IMG/VR virus record: IMGVR_UViG_3300049845_000618
Location: 1 to 28,107 of that record
DNA length: 28,107 nt
Reading direction: 5' to 3' (one strand)
DNA from: a virus
Position numbers and translations under genes: made by a program. The notes below the pieces were generated by a model that was not told where the DNA came from, made no database searches, and worked only from the letters and a program-made list of their open reading frames with translations. Shown here in pieces: positions 1,724-24,033 of the stretch (positions are counted from its first letter, which is position 1; each line of letters opens with the position of its first letter).

Positions 1724-2302
1724 TCAGTTCGCGGGACGCAGCTGGATGCCGGTGTCACGTTTGGTCTCGAAGGTCTGACGTGCCTTGTCGGTCGTGACGA
1801 TCGTGCACATCTTCTGCAGGTCCGTCTTAGGGTACCCGGCGAGCTTCAACCAGAACCCGCCCCACACGTACCCCAAGTTCGTCTCGTAAGTGCGGCACTG
1901 ATCGAGCAGCGCTGTTTGCGCCGTCCTGAACTCGTTCCTGAAGGCCTCCATGGCCTGTTGGATCCTGGTGTACACCGAGCTGTCGATCTGCGGGTTCTGT
2001 TCCTGGATCCACTGGAACACGGCCTGCGAACCGTTCTCACCGTACCTGCCCTGCAGCGCCGCGGTGAAGACCTCCTTGATGTCGTCACGCATCATGGCCG
2101 GAACCTGTGCGATCTCCATGACCTTCTGCGTGCCGTTCGCGTACACGTTCTCGTTGTCTTGGTACTTGGCCTTGATCGAAACCTCGGCGCGGTTGCCGTA
2201 GTTCGCGGCACTGATGTACGAGAACACGAGCACGGCGCCGATGGCGACGAGCGCGATGATCAGGATGATGGAAGCGCTGATCGCGCCACGTTGGTTCTTC
2301 AT
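1724..2302 (-). CDS. LemA-like membrane-anchored protein
   Basis: The 192-residue protein starts with a short basic N terminus and one transmembrane helix (about residues 9-31). A helical domain follows: a YxxNENVYANGTQKVMEIAQVP-type first helix, a Gln-rich middle, and an AQTALLDQCRTYETNLGYVWGGFW segment near the C terminus. The single N-terminal anchor followed by a long helical bundle resembles the LemA family, seen in bacteria and some large phages. I chose the ATG at 2302 because it makes an ATGA overlap with the preceding gene's stop and has AGGTCC upstream. A 26-codon N-terminal extension is possible in frame but would overlap that gene. LemA function is poorly known; the gene context, next to a TPM-like protein, fits the LemA-TPM pairing seen in bacteria. 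Confidence 0.7.
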   Translation of the reverse strand: MKNQRGAISASIILIIALVAIGAVLVFSYISAANYGNRAEVSIKAKYQDNENVYANGTQKVMEIAQVPAMMRDDIKEVFTAALQGRYGENGSQAVFQWIQEQNPQIDSSVYTRIQQAMEAFRNEFRTAQTALLDQCRTYETNLGYVWGGFWLKLAGYPKTDLQKMCTIVTTDKARQTFETKRDTGIQLRPAN

Positions 2303-2721: not shown

Positions 2722-3840
2722 TCAGCGCCGTCGAGCCCCGGCGACACGAGAGGCCCACCAGGCACCTCCACCGTAGCCGACACAGAGCATAACAGCGAGA
2801 GTCATCAGCAACCACTCGGGTGGGCTGATGGCATCGGCGAGGTACTCGAACTCGGCCATCTGCCGACGCTCGAACGAGGAGCTGATGTGTTGGCTGGCGA
2901 GCTGCAGCACGCGTGCCCGGTCGATGACACCGAGGCGCTGAACATCATCCCGGAGTTGGACCTTGAAGAGCTCGCTACGGGACCAGGACAGAACGTCCAC
3001 CCACGAGATACGTTGACCATCCGCTGAACCGATCACGAGCACGACATCGTTCTTGTTCGCGCCTTCCCAGGCTTCGAGCAAGGCGTGCGCGTACCGTGGA
3101 TCCTCCGTACGAGCAACGACCACGATCAGGTTCACCTGCTTCTTCGGCCCGAGCTCACGTAGCAGCATGCCGATCTCGCGGTTCCAGGTGCCAGCGTCGT
3201 CGAACTTGAACCCGACCTGTACGAACCTGTCGATGCGGTACAGGTCGTAGATCTGATCGGGGTACGGTGGCAGCATGCTCGCGAAAGAGGCTGCTGCGCC
3301 TGTGAACCTAAAGAGGCTCTCAGGAACCGCTTGCACGTAATTCGTGTACGAGCTGCGCTTGGAGACAGGGTCACCAGGCTGGATGCTCTCGTACCGTGCC
3401 GGGTTGGGTGTGTTCCAAACAGAGCGCGATGTTGTGTCACGGCTGTCGATCGTGAAGCGCCCCAGCGTCGTGTTGCAGTACCAGTGCACCGTGTACCGGT
3501 CCTCGTAGCATGTGTCGCATACTCGAGAGCAGGTTCGGTTTTGTCCAGATCCTCGGCATTCATCACGGCAGCGACAGTCGTACGAGCGCTCGTACTCCCC
3601 ATGCACTCGTTCCTTGGAGGCCACTTGGCCGTTCCAGATCTCAACGTCGCTGACCGCCGAGGTCTGCGAAATCCCAAAGACCAGCGCCACCAGCACAATA
3701 CCTGGTAGGGCGAACAATGGGATCGCGATCAGGCTCTGGTACTTGCCCATTGAGCGGGCCAAGGACTCACGAGCATACAGTTTGACCAGCGCGGCGCCAA
3801 TGATTGGCAGCGCGAGAAAGAACCAGAGAGTGGCGTTCAT
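2722..3840 (-). CDS. Membrane protein with Cys-rich insert and TPM-like domain
   Basis: The 372-residue protein has two N-terminal transmembrane helices (about 4-20 and 36-57) and a C-terminal one (about 343-365). Between them is a cysteine-rich stretch with Cys at 89, 91, 95, 104, 108, 111 and 122. A domain follows that contains a VNLIVVVART strand, an ALLEAWEGANKNDVVLVIG segment and a QRISWVDV strand. That strand-helix-strand order, with a conserved W followed by ND-VLV, resembles TPM domains. These domains are common next to LemA proteins in bacteria. The cysteine cluster could bind metal or form disulfides if it is periplasmic. The start overlaps the upstream stop (ATGA). The TPM call is by motif impression only; the membrane topology is clearer. 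Confidence 0.6.
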   Translation of the reverse strand: MNATLWFFLALPIIGAALVKLYARESLARSMGKYQSLIAIPLFALPGIVLVALVFGISQTSAVSDVEIWNGQVASKERVHGEYERSYDCRCRDECRGSGQNRTCSRVCDTCYEDRYTVHWYCNTTLGRFTIDSRDTTSRSVWNTPNPARYESIQPGDPVSKRSSYTNYVQAVPESLFRFTGAAASFASMLPPYPDQIYDLYRIDRFVQVGFKFDDAGTWNREIGMLLRELGPKKQVNLIVVVARTEDPRYAHALLEAWEGANKNDVVLVIGSADGQRISWVDVLSWSRSELFKVQLRDDVQRLGVIDRARVLQLASQHISSSFERRQMAEFEYLADAISPPEWLLMTLAVMLCVGYGGGAWWASRVAGARRR

Positions 3841-19800: not shown

Positions 19801-20814
19801 TTACTTCTGATCTCGATAGTGCGCTGCTGAATCTGTAGGGTGATCGTCAAAGCTCACCGTGGTGTCGGCGCGGACGCGATTGAGTGAGCTGTGATATGGT
19901 CGAGCTGGTGACGTCATGGGAGGCGGCTGCAGATCACGGAGCTTGATCTCCTTCCGGTCCACAATTGGTTTCGGTTCTGCCGGTGGAGCTGAAGGCATCT
20001 CCTCGGGCACCGCCTCGGCGACAACAGGCGACGCCGGAGGCACCTGAACAGGCTCTGGTGTAGTGGCCTCAGTCGGCTTCATCGGTGGCACCGGTGGGGT
20101 CGCTGGAGCTGGAGGCTCTTGGGGTGGCGGCCCCGGGCGGCGATGACGTTCCCAGAGGAAGTTACCTGCTACGATCAGGAAGACGGCCAGCGGGTCGAAC
20201 ACGAAGATGATCAGCGCGATCACGTACTTCGCGGCCTCTTCGACTGGGATGTCGAAGGCCTTCGAGATCGCCACGATCGGACCAGCCTTAGCTTCAGTCG
20301 TGACTTGCTCGATGCGGAGCGTTGGCAGCTCTCGATCAAGCTCCTCGAGTCGAGCCGTGATGCGGCGCTGCTCAGCCTCGAACTCCCGCATGACGTTCAC
20401 GCGGGTTCGACCGTAGTTCGCTGGCAGGTTTGCAACCTGGTTGTCGATCTGTTGCTTGCGTGCCAGCAACCTTGTCTGCTCTTCACGCAACGCCTCAACC
20501 TTCAGTGCGATCTCCTGCGTCCCAACCATCGCTTTCTGGAACTCAGACGTCAGATACCCCGCCGCTCCGGCAGAGGTGATCAGCATCGTGATGCAGGTTG
20601 CCAGCACCGCGTACACGCGCATGAGCTTACTCAGCTCACGCCAGTACTTGTACAACAGTGAGACCACGATGATCTTGCCGACGTCGAGCGCGATCGCGAC
20701 CGCAACAATGATTGGGTTGGCACCGAAGAAGGTGCTCAACCCGATGACTGAAATCAGGGTCGCGAGGGCCTCAATGGAGAGCGCCGTCGCGAAGGTCAGG
20801 ACGGCGAAGAACAT
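19801..20814 (-). CDS. Membrane protein with coiled-coil and Pro-rich tail
   Basis: The 337-residue protein has four or five N-terminal transmembrane helices in all. The first two are MFFAVLTFATALSIEALATLISVIGL and IIVAVAIALDVGKIIVVSLL; the third is ITMLITSAGAAG; a fourth lies around 196-221. A coiled coil (100-175) lies between the third and fourth. The cytosolic-looking tail is Pro/Glu/Ala-rich (PPPQEPPAPATPPVPPM and so on). Similar proteins exist in T4-like marine phages. The role is unknown. Confidence 0.7.
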   Translation of the reverse strand: MFFAVLTFATALSIEALATLISVIGLSTFFGANPIIVAVAIALDVGKIIVVSLLYKYWRELSKLMRVYAVLATCITMLITSAGAAGYLTSEFQKAMVGTQEIALKVEALREEQTRLLARKQQIDNQVANLPANYGRTRVNVMREFEAEQRRITARLEELDRELPTLRIEQVTTEAKAGPIVAISKAFDIPVEEAAKYVIALIIFVFDPLAVFLIVAGNFLWERHRRPGPPPQEPPAPATPPVPPMKPTEATTPEPVQVPPASPVVAEAVPEEMPSAPPAEPKPIVDRKEIKLRDLQPPPMTSPARPYHSSLNRVRADTTVSFDDHPTDSAAHYRDQK

Positions 20815-22426: not shown

Positions 22427-22453
22427 GATTGATTGTACGTGAGAATGCAAAAA

Positions 22454-22479
22454 GTGTCGTCACAATATTATGACGACAC
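22454..22479 (-). terminator. Rho-independent terminator after the SPFH unit
   Basis: An 8-bp stem (GTGTCGTC/GACGACAC) with a 10-base AT-rich loop is followed on the minus strand by TTTTT (22449-22453). It ends the two-gene SPFH unit just before the dCMP deaminase. Confidence 0.85.
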
Positions 22480-22498: not shown

Positions 22499-23056
22499 TC
22501 AGATGATCAGGTTGAAGCCAAACACCAGCCCAATCAAGATCATCGCAATGCTGAAGATCGTCTTGACAACACGAGCCTCATCAGAGTACGTGACTCGAAC
22601 GACCCTACGACGAACCCACATGCCCTTGAGATATGGGATGTGCTCGTACTCGATGTTTGTCGCGCCGATCTTAGCCCGCCAGGCCACAGCCGCCAAGGTC
22701 AGACAGATCATCAGCAAGGTGATCCCAGACATAATCTGCAAGATGTCTTGACCAACGATCTTGTACACGATGATCGCTACCGTGATCTTGCCGAGCGTGG
22801 TCTGAGAGAACTCGTTCGCCGCGACTCCGACCTCACGAGCCGCGCTCACCATGGCCCGTCCCATGTTCGCACCAAGCTCGCCCCAGGCTTCCGCCTCCTG
22901 ACGAACGGTAGCTGAGATGTTCTCAGGTTGGGCCTTGAGCTTGCTGACCTGCTCGTTCAGCGCCTTGACCTGTTCTGGGGTCAGTCCCTCAGTCGAGATC
23001 TGAGCGAAGCTGAACTGGCTGAAGATCAGCAGCGCCAGCAGTACCAGGTACTTCAC
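22499..23056 (-). CDS. Secreted/membrane partner of the SPFH protein
   Basis: The 185-residue protein has an N-terminal signal-like segment (KYLVLLALLIFSQFSFA, ending before Gln19). A helical region with LTPEQVKALNEQVSKLKAQ follows, then a transmembrane stretch (TVAIIVYKIVGQDILQIMSGITLLMICLTLAAVAW) and a C-terminal hydrophobic helix (IFSIAMILIGLVFGFNLII). No family recognised. The ATGA overlap with the SPFH gene and the shared terminator make a two-gene unit, so they likely act together. Confidence 0.75.
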   Translation of the reverse strand: MKYLVLLALLIFSQFSFAQISTEGLTPEQVKALNEQVSKLKAQPENISATVRQEAEAWGELGANMGRAMVSAAREVGVAANEFSQTTLGKITVAIIVYKIVGQDILQIMSGITLLMICLTLAAVAWRAKIGATNIEYEHIPYLKGMWVRRRVVRVTYSDEARVVKTIFSIAMILIGLVFGFNLII

Positions 23057-23880
23057 TTGACGTTCACCACTTGGTTGCCAGGGGTGATGATGCAGTTCGC
23101 CGCCTTCTCGCAGGCCTCAGCCCAACGGCGGTTGATCTCGATCTCCATGAACTGCTGTGGAGTCAGGCCCATGCTGTTCCGGTACGCGTTGTCAGCCTGG
23201 GCCTTGGCGATCTGCTCGGCCTTGCGCTGCAGCTCAGCAGCTTCGGCCTCGATCAGGGTGCGTCGACGTTGCTGCTGCGCGGCGGTGGCGTTCATCTGCT
23301 CAAGGACACTGGCGTTCGGCTTGGCACGACCCAGTGAAACACCGAGGATCTCAATCGGCAGGCCCTGGTCAACGACGTGCTTGACCAGTGCTTGCGTGAC
23401 CTCGTTGTCGACGGTCTGCGCGGCGCTGACGTCAGACATCATCTCTGACATGGACTTCTTCTTGACCGCTTCACGAACGATCGCGAGGTACTGGCGCAGC
23501 ACGTTGTTGTTGAACCAGTCCTCGCCGAACTTGTCGACGAGCTTGACTGAGTCGGTCACGCGGTACTGGATCGTGCTCTCGAAGTCCAGCAGGATGTTGT
23601 CAGATGAGCTGAAGTCATCGACCTTGACGTTCTCGGAGGTTGGCGTGACTCGCACCGTGTACATCGTGCTGGTGCGCCACAGCAGGATCCGACCTTCACG
23701 CAAGGGTTCAGGACGAACGCCTGAGCTGCCGAAGAAGTACGGCTTGTCGACGATCACACCATGATGACCAGGCTCGACGGTCTCAGTGTACATGAAGGCG
23801 AACCAGCTGATGAACATCCCAATCAGCGAGATGATGCCCAGCACGATGATCGCCACGAAACTTTGTCCTGCTCTGGTCAT
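23053..23880 (-). CDS. SPFH (prohibitin/band 7-like) membrane protein
   Basis: The 275-residue protein has a single N-terminal transmembrane helix (about 8-30) and the SPFH layout: EPGHHGVIVDKPYFFG, then RILLWRTSTMYTVRVTP, LLDFESTIQYRVTD, and a helical part (EDWFNNNVLRQYLAIVREAVKKKSMSEMMSD). A C-terminal coiled coil follows (AAQQQRRRTLIEAEAAELQRKAEQIAKAQAD). This matches HflC/prohibitin-type proteins that organise membrane microdomains. The SD before it (AGGAGG) lies in a hairpin, see 23886-23901. The role in the phage is unknown; a link to the membrane proteins at 1-3840 is a guess. Confidence 0.85.
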   Translation of the reverse strand: MTRAGQSFVAIIVLGIISLIGMFISWFAFMYTETVEPGHHGVIVDKPYFFGSSGVRPEPLREGRILLWRTSTMYTVRVTPTSENVKVDDFSSSDNILLDFESTIQYRVTDSVKLVDKFGEDWFNNNVLRQYLAIVREAVKKKSMSEMMSDVSAAQTVDNEVTQALVKHVVDQGLPIEILGVSLGRAKPNASVLEQMNATAAQQQRRRTLIEAEAAELQRKAEQIAKAQADNAYRNSMGLTPQQFMEIEINRRWAEACEKAANCIITPGNQVVNVK

Positions 23881-23885
23881 GGAAT

Positions 23886-23901
23886 CCTCCTAGAAAGGAG
23901 G
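23886..23901 (-). promoter_or_regulatory. Hairpin that can hide the SPFH ribosome-binding site
   Basis: On the minus strand CCTCCT, a 4-base loop (TTCT) and AGGAGG form a perfect 6-bp stem. The AGGAGG is the SD of the SPFH gene, so the upstream CCTCCT can pair with and mask it. An RNA-level switch or temperature effect would be expected if it is real. Confidence 0.5.
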
Positions 23902-23957
23902 GCATCATAGCATAGCAAGATTGACGTGCATAGGGTACTTGGGTCCGTTGCACCAAA

Positions 23958-24033
23958 AACGACCGAGGGGCCCTAGGGCCCCTCGTCTGTTTGGTACTAT
24001 GTCGGCCGGGCCGAGTGTCGCAGTCGTCGCCTA
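23958..24033 (-). repeat. Copy 2 of an inverted 3'-UTR repeat
   Basis: Read on the minus strand it begins at the stop of the 37-residue gene (TAG at 24031-24033) and continues through a terminator palindrome (23964-23985) followed by GTCGTTTTT. It matches copy 1 at 9124-9198 in opposite orientation, with an exact 44-bp core. Confidence 0.85.
23964..23985 (-). terminator. Palindromic terminator after the mini-ligase unit
   Basis: The same 22-bp palindrome as at 9172-9193, here followed on the minus strand by GTCGTTTTT, so a good rho-independent terminator for the unit that starts at 25522. Confidence 0.8.

Follow-up and report, generated by a model that had tools for sequence, protein, structure and literature searches.

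The window, by which we mean the whole stretch of DNA analyzed, is a virus fragment of 28,107 bases. On its minus strand, a 275-aa SPFH gene (23880-23053) is followed by a 185-aa gene (23056-22499) for a predicted membrane protein, here termed the partner. The features of the pair are as follows.

23053..23880, minus strand: SPFH/Band 7 gene, 275 aa, ATG start (ORF list; PF01145 E 1.9e-20, AlphaFold2 model, hydropathy)
22499..23056, minus strand: partner gene, 185 aa, GTG start (phrog_19575 E 2e-18, phrog_33832 E 2e-14, AlphaFold2 model, hydropathy)
23886..23891, minus strand: AGGAGG ribosome-binding site of the SPFH gene (read in the sequence)
23053..23056, minus strand: GTGA, in which the partner start overlaps the SPFH stop, the geometry of translational coupling (sequence)
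22449..22479, minus strand: intrinsic terminator 3' of the partner, 9-bp stem plus T5 (sequence, RNA fold)
23955..23985, minus strand: intrinsic terminator of the preceding unit, upstream of the SPFH gene (consensus scan, RNA fold)
23092..23112, minus strand: C257 and C263 codons, encoding the C-terminal cysteine pair (present in all family members examined)
22790..22843, minus strand: partner family signature, residues 72-89 (alignment A8, 23 rows)
SPFH protein, predicted parts: TM anchor, residues ~7-28; SPFH domain, ~30-190; long helix, 190-236; second helix, 241-259 (AlphaFold2 model, hydropathy)
Partner protein (185 aa), predicted layout: signal peptide, helical region, TM helix, beta hairpin, TM helix (hydropathy, AlphaFold2 model)

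The SPFH gene and its overlapping partner

The initial annotation described the two genes as translationally coupled in a unit with its own terminator. Both points held: the GTGA overlap has the geometry of coupling, and the hairpin 3' of the partner (22454-22479) has a perfect 9-bp stem followed by T5, with an RNA fold of −20.5 kcal/mol (z −4.7 versus shuffles). A second hairpin lies upstream of the pair, before the SPFH gene (−28 kcal/mol, z −3.8 versus shuffles). The consensus terminator scan listed only this upstream site (23964-23985, both strands) and missed the downstream hairpin; its 2 terminator-like sites against 2.0 expected represent no excess. A promoter scan gave nothing above chance (2 found against 1.5 expected). 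The pair is bordered by a dCMP deaminase gene downstream and an uncharacterized 110-aa ORF upstream.

The SPFH protein belongs to the superfamily by its match to Band_7 PF01145, at 74.1 bits against a cutoff of 23.6. Its AlphaFold2 model (pLDDT 81, pTM 0.56), for which the underlying alignment had four rows only, has the SPFH fold with a long helix after the domain. The best solved matches of this model by Foldseek and VIA were human prohibitin, erlin, stomatin, and E. coli HflK/C, with a Foldseek E of 5.9e-13 to PHB1/2 and a VIA Z of 17.6 (rmsd 10.1, 230 residues aligned). The stomatin SPFH domain alone gave a VIA Z of 14.5 with an rmsd of 3.2 over 113 aligned residues. Hydropathy placed an N-terminal hydrophobic segment at residues 1-32. 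The PF01145 match, the predicted fold, and the hydrophobic N-terminus bear out the earlier reading of an SPFH protein with a TM anchor, and the predicted helix at 190-236 is in keeping with the C-terminal coiled coil it proposed.

By sequence, the closest solved chain was HflK (E 1.2e-5), and PMC13086221 is cited beside it for our preferred reading. The hflK model was also the only NCBIfam model matched, at 31.7 bits against the TIGR01933 cutoff of 159.4, which places the protein outside the HflK equivalog. Among phage families, it matched phrog_200 (“lipoprotein”) at E 1e-26. A PADLOC defense role for the pair was set aside, as the PADLOC models gave no defense family at E≤0.01.

The partner has a signal-peptide-like N-terminus and hydrophobic stretches at about 100-132 and 160-185 by hydropathy. 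Its AlphaFold2 model (pLDDT 84, pTM 0.49) consists of long helices with a beta hairpin between two TM helices. Neither of the two PHROGs that it matched is annotated with a function. Its membership in phrog_19575 was confirmed in that 23 of 23 members of our partner alignment (A8) match the profile and the GVAxN[ED]F-type signature is present. The family core in the 23-row alignment reads A-A-x-E-x-G-V-A-x-N-E/D-F-x-x-T-x-x-G, with A73, E75, G77, V78, A79, F83, T86, and G89 invariant and A72 and N81 near-invariant. Relatives were found in 38 phage records and, by alignment-based scan, in 26 viral contigs; a single-sequence scan of the viral contigs with the partner gave no confirmed relative. 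The bacterial genome scan, which was seeded by one motif and so leaves cellular relatives possible, found none. Within the searches made here, the partner family thus appears so far to be found only in phages.

No Pfam family could be assigned to the window partner. The NfeD profile was absent from its matches at E≤1 and from those of the 23 A8 members (E≤0.01), so that NfeD membership is not supported at profile level. An HR_lesion match in 1 of the 23 members (E 0.0043) was set aside. Against the PDB, the single sequence match was a flagellar protein at E 1 (residues 1-53). By fold, the best PDB match had an E of 0.89, and the best VIA match had a Z of 6.2 (rmsd 4.6, 69 residues), with no solved relative prominent; set against the C-terminal OB-fold domain of NfeD proteins, what the model has is the hairpin between its TM helices. 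BFVD yielded 7 matches at E≤1e-3, among them Noxifer and ACP17 proteins, and all were uncharacterized or unnamed. Arg and Lys are abundant in the stretch that joins the two TM helices. Under the positive-inside rule, such a stretch of a membrane protein lies on the cytoplasmic side, which would leave the helical N-terminal part on the periplasmic side.

Anchors and relatives of the SPFH family

By its sequence, the window SPFH protein is a member of a mostly-lipoprotein family common to phages and the chromosomes of Xanthomonadaceae and related bacteria. We identified 19 phage records with relatives by tblastn, including Stenotrophomonas DLP3 and DLP5, Xanthomonas X1 and LucasX, Pseudomonas PaBG, and Tunturiibacter Tunturi_3. 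The nearest relative, designated L044, is 64% identical. In bacterial genomes, the alignment-based scan gave 26 loci at 32 to 58% identity, 16 of which are Xanthomonas by record title. In viral contigs, the same kind of scan gave 4 loci, and a single-sequence scan with the window protein gave no confirmed relative. Surroundings were listed for 7 of the 26 bacterial loci, and ten neighbor proteins from 6 loci were scanned. Because 8 of these 10 match UvrB, glutathione transferase, GntR, MFS, EamA, amidohydrolase, or ABC models, the bacterial copies look chromosomal, not prophage-borne, at the 6 loci scanned.

We built a maximum-likelihood tree of 33 sequences, in which phage members are interleaved with bacterial ones. 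One clade (ultrafast bootstrap 100) unites the window protein with L043 and PaBG, and Tunturi_3 groups with four gammaproteobacterial MAGs (ultrafast bootstrap 100). The tree suggests that an SPFH lipoprotein gene has passed between phages and bacterial chromosomes. Several deeper nodes are weak (support 20 to 62), so the number and direction of these transfers are unsettled.

A lipoprotein-type signal is present in the SPFH proteins of DLP3, Tunturi_3, cm3, and, by eye, X1. A hydrophobic TM-type segment replaces it in the window protein, where the lipoprotein pattern was not found, and in L043, PaBG, and LucasX. Among the bacterial loci, 19 of 26 have the lipoprotein pattern (first 75 residues of the longest ORF), while the other 7 have over-extended or cut ORFs or deviate from it. 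The lipobox column of the tree alignment holds a cysteine in 27 of 33 rows; the six rows lacking it are the window, L043, PaBG, LucasX, and two bacterial members.

The C-terminal cysteine pair was kept in 34 of 34 members examined (8/8 phage lineages and 26/26 bacterial loci), a survey that did not take in other phage records such as phi127 (25% identical). Its first cysteine is invariant in all 33 alignment rows. Besides this pair, the phage members have no cysteine other than that of the lipobox and a single one within the TM segment of L043. A conserved lone pair fits a disulfide, with metal binding also possible. Taken with the lipid anchors, the pair suggests that the SPFH domain lies outside the cytoplasm. 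Since lipidated proteins are exported and the pair fits a disulfide, the domain is most likely periplasmic, like that of HflK/C.

SPFH genes have been described in phages before. The SPFH domains of T4-like phages 44RR, Aeh1, and RB43 were tabulated in 2006 (PMC1524935), the DLP5 gene was termed a moron (PMC5834331), and the DLP3 and X1 genes were listed (PMC7326821, PMC13384950). SPFH proteins of Erwinia jumbo phages were identified by mass spectrometry in a 2020 paper that calls SPFH function in phages poorly understood (PMC7760394). Kuttervirus Sajous1 gp200 appears in a mass-spectrometry table with a count of 3 (PMC10892097), and a role in entry was guessed for the GIB1 protein (PMC13239085). 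An envelope location also agrees with the detection of Pasteurella multocida PM0222, an HflK/C-like SPFH protein of a prophage island, in outer-membrane vesicles (PMC9872710). SPFH is further mentioned for a protein of an outer-membrane proteome (PMC3499465), on which we do not draw. Matches to “prohibitin” in PMC11879866 and PMC9938867 proved to be the word “prohibiting,” and PMC7159879 names SPFH solely in the title of a reference. In the accessible portions of the literature searched, we met no description of an SPFH-partner pair or of the cysteine pair, which is not proof of absence. What appears new here is the coupled partner, the cysteine pair, and the switch of anchor with its bearing on topology.

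The closest known systems each resemble the pair in part. HflK and HflC, the E. coli FtsH modulators, share the SPFH domain, the N-terminal membrane anchor, and the helix after the domain. However, the window protein is shorter, falls below the hflK cutoff, carries the C-terminal cysteine pair, and belongs to a family mostly of lipoproteins. Other phage SPFH proteins (phrog_200, DLP5, X1, PaBG, kutterviruses, and 44RR/Aeh1/RB43) are likewise without an assigned function, but the window protein is TM-anchored and its gene overlaps a partner gene that the relatives' records lack (9/9). QmcA-YbbJ (SPFH-NfeD) also combines an SPFH protein with a small membrane protein, and its solved complex, 8z5g, is among the SPFH fold matches. 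The window partner differs in having no Pfam NfeD match and in its layout of signal peptide, helices, TM, hairpin, and TM. PM0222 is a prophage-borne HflK/C-like SPFH protein that we liken by description, not by sequence; the accessible part of its description, however, mentions no partner protein.

Proximity and co-occurrence in other phages

We measured the distance between genes in records carrying both. SPFH and partner genes lie ≤10 kb apart in 8 of 13 such records, with the window excluded (combined P 1e-4 versus random placement). The same test gave 2 of 12 records for TPM and partner (P 0.11) and 1 of 15 for SPFH and TPM (P 0.20). Not counted as extra rows for SPFH and partner were VPG01 (~5 kb apart, same subfamily as Ceto) and G001 (like G009). 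Where a record has two SPFH genes, we took the closer of them in G009 and XacN1 and, in X1, the member of the window's family. The TPM-partner test left out phi 3 (like VPG01) and G001. The SPFH-TPM test took one RaK2-sized contig for eight and left out G064 (like VPG01), G001, and 13 contigs of 152 to 162 kb. G017 and W12 are the same phage.

In Variovorax phage V45v66, which is unannotated, an SPFH gene with a lipobox lies 72 bp past the partner, the reverse of the order in the window. In Stenotrophomonas DLP_6, the SPFH gene is followed after 67 bp by the partner, and a hairpin seen by eye in this gap may separate the two genes. This DLP_6 gene (KU682439.2; L010:3932-4837), directly upstream of the partner homolog, is labelled a transposase and is an SPFH/Band 7 protein (E 4e-25). 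By length and N-terminus, the SPFH proteins near the partner in V45v66, DLP_6, and other phages fall by eye into several subtypes, and those of V45v66 and DLP_6 differ in subtype from the window's. In XacN1, Band 7 matches of equal score at 31295 and 350090 lie near both record ends; with the two partner positions, they point to long terminal repeats carrying the region.

The partner gene was absent from all 9 further records that hold a relative of the window SPFH protein, including the nearest, L044; these nine also include phi127 and G026 (a fragment). Band_7 was found in 7 of 25 partner-bearing viral contigs versus 7 of 8 partner-bearing named phages, and many of the 18 contigs without it are fragments. 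Thus, the SPFH protein and the partner can each occur alone. In G006, the contig with the top TPM match, the partner and a Band_7 gene of another subtype are 93 kb apart. The two genes are loosely linked: a partner gene tends to have an SPFH gene of one subtype or another nearby. Proximity is in itself no proof of a link; accessory-region genes of phages cluster anyway.

The initial annotation further suggested for the SPFH gene a common membrane-organizing program with LemA-, TPM-, and PspA-like genes of the window. The PspA-like label was not borne out, with PspA_IM30 at 10.1 bits against a cutoff of 33.9 in the ORF at 1-1032. This ORF encodes a 343-aa membrane protein whose only phage relatives found were 15 Lak megaphage records at ~28% identity. 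The LemA and TPM Pfam models stayed below threshold in the relatives: LemA PF04011 (window 1724-2302) matched 0 of 5 phage relatives at E≤0.01 and 0 of 8 records at E≤1, and TPM PF04536 (window 2722-3840) matched 0 of 5 at E≤0.01 and 1 of 8 records (VPG01) at 13.4 bits, below the cutoff of 22.1. A remote kinship of these phage genes to LemA and TPM is plausible, since the six control genomes with phrog_1383 matches are a subset of the eight with a LemA match. That PHROG is annotated as a virion structural protein. The TPM-like and LemA-like neighbors have relatives in 471 and 456 phage records, respectively, and in the TPM-like protein the TM stretches are followed by a segment rich in cysteine, which may also be an exported domain. 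Elsewhere in the window, 19801-20814 encodes a 337-aa protein with several hydrophobic stretches and no family match. When both profiles were searched, the LemA-like and TPM-like genes co-occurred, with both present in 12 of 38 records and neither in the other 26.

Band_7 was present in 23 of 57 TPM-positive contigs versus 2 of 16 TPM-negative clamp-loader controls (Fisher P 0.042). Two groups supplied 17 of these 23 contigs, namely, RaK2-sized contigs (8) and those of 152 to 162 kb (9/18). When each group was counted once, Band_7 fell to 8 of 33 (P 0.46), so the raw excess stems from two lineages. Both samples are small, the controls represent another kind of phage, and neither P value is phylogeny-corrected, which leaves an association conceivable. 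Within the second group, Band_7 occurs in 8 of 13 contigs that are likely near-duplicates, and without these 13 the count is 15 of 44 (P 0.12). The 57 were drawn from 73 TPM loci (60 kb or more), leaving out 12 shorter ones and G001, G006, G009, and G016, which had been picked through the partner too and of which 3 have Band_7. The controls were 16 of 80 clamp-loader loci (57 kb or more; 16/16 without TPM). Lineages were grouped by size class, SPFH length, and named taxonomy, with no tree. The expected co-occurrence of SPFH with TPM was thus seen in the raw count and was gone once the two lineages were collapsed. The close SPFH family occurs with TPM in X1, PaBG, L044, and the window and without it in LucasX, DLP3, Tunturi_3, and cm3. 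The contigs of 152 to 162 kb (G088-G100, G061-G063, G068, and G069) are similar to one another and TPM-positive, with SPFH in 9 of 18, and may offer a natural comparison.

A proposed periplasm-facing scaffold and its candidate client

Our preferred reading, to which we give a probability of about 0.4, is that the pair consists of an HflK/C-like, periplasm-facing SPFH scaffold and a phage-specific membrane client. The unit would be a two-component envelope device. The SPFH protein would be held in the inner membrane by its TM helix, unlike its mostly lipid-anchored relatives, exposing its SPFH domain and C-terminal cysteine pair to the periplasm in the manner of HflK/HflC. Analogy to SPFH proteins of solved structure leads us to expect its assembly into a membrane ring or cage. 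The translationally coupled partner would be cut by signal peptidase, with its helical domain in the periplasm and two membrane crossings, and as the phage-specific client it would be gathered or walled off by the SPFH ring through physical contact. The most likely purpose would be an altered host envelope during infection, for example, by shielding phage membrane proteins from FtsH-type proteolysis or by blocking a second phage. As a protein so far found only in phages, with genes that tend to lie close to SPFH genes of differing subtypes, the partner is a concrete candidate for the client, and the topology can be tested through the conserved cysteine pair and the lipoprotein anchors.

The main rival is that the SPFH gene is a host-derived moron, a captured envelope gene acting alone, in membrane order or in helping the infected cell to tolerate stress, and that it is coupled to the partner here merely by accident of gene order. 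We consider this possible, if doubtful. In its favor are the interleaved tree, with Tunturi_3 among gammaproteobacterial MAGs and its deeper nodes weak, the chromosomal-type neighbors of the bacterial copies (6/26 loci), and the absence of the partner from the other records with a relative (9/9). Against this, the two genes overlap at GTGA and are isolated between two terminator hairpins, and the partner is close to SPFH genes of several subtypes in other phages. An SPFH protein carried in the particle, or acting at adsorption or DNA entry, is unlikely on balance. The mass-spectrometry reports for Erwinia jumbo phages (PMC7760394) and Sajous1 gp200 (PMC10892097) and the guess for GIB1 (PMC13239085) speak for it, but the gp200 count is low, those proteins are set beside the window's by description only, and no nameable structural genes adjoin the pair.

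We hold the single membrane-organizing program to be quite unlikely. All of its genes lie within this window, SPFH and TPM recur together in X1, PaBG, and L044, and the raw Band_7 excess is in its favor; however, that excess does not survive counting two lineages once, SPFH and TPM are rarely close (1/15), four phages have the close SPFH family and no TPM, and the PspA label is not significant. As stated, the program is not supported. A decoy or modulator of host HflK/C-FtsH is very unlikely. It would account for hflK as the only NCBIfam match and HflK as the best solved chain by sequence, but the score is far below the hflK cutoff, and most family members look lipid-anchored and so would have no TM helix to sit beside FtsH.

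If the scaffold-and-client reading is true, the pair would form a phage-built envelope compartment. In its strongest form, which is conceivable but improbable, a periplasm-facing phage SPFH cage would enclose a phage-only membrane protein as an exported proteinaceous compartment, and the cage of the lipoprotein relatives would sit on the outer membrane. To our knowledge, the outer membrane is not a place usually given for SPFH proteins. The placing of these relatives is based on the lipoprotein sorting rule for the residue after the lipid cysteine; the members read have T, S, A, or N at this position, and none has D. Separately, a second SPFH lipoprotein subtype in V45v66 (L009:6565-7515) and XacN1 (L004:1615-2526) has a cysteine pair of its own near residues 56-61 (CxxxC).
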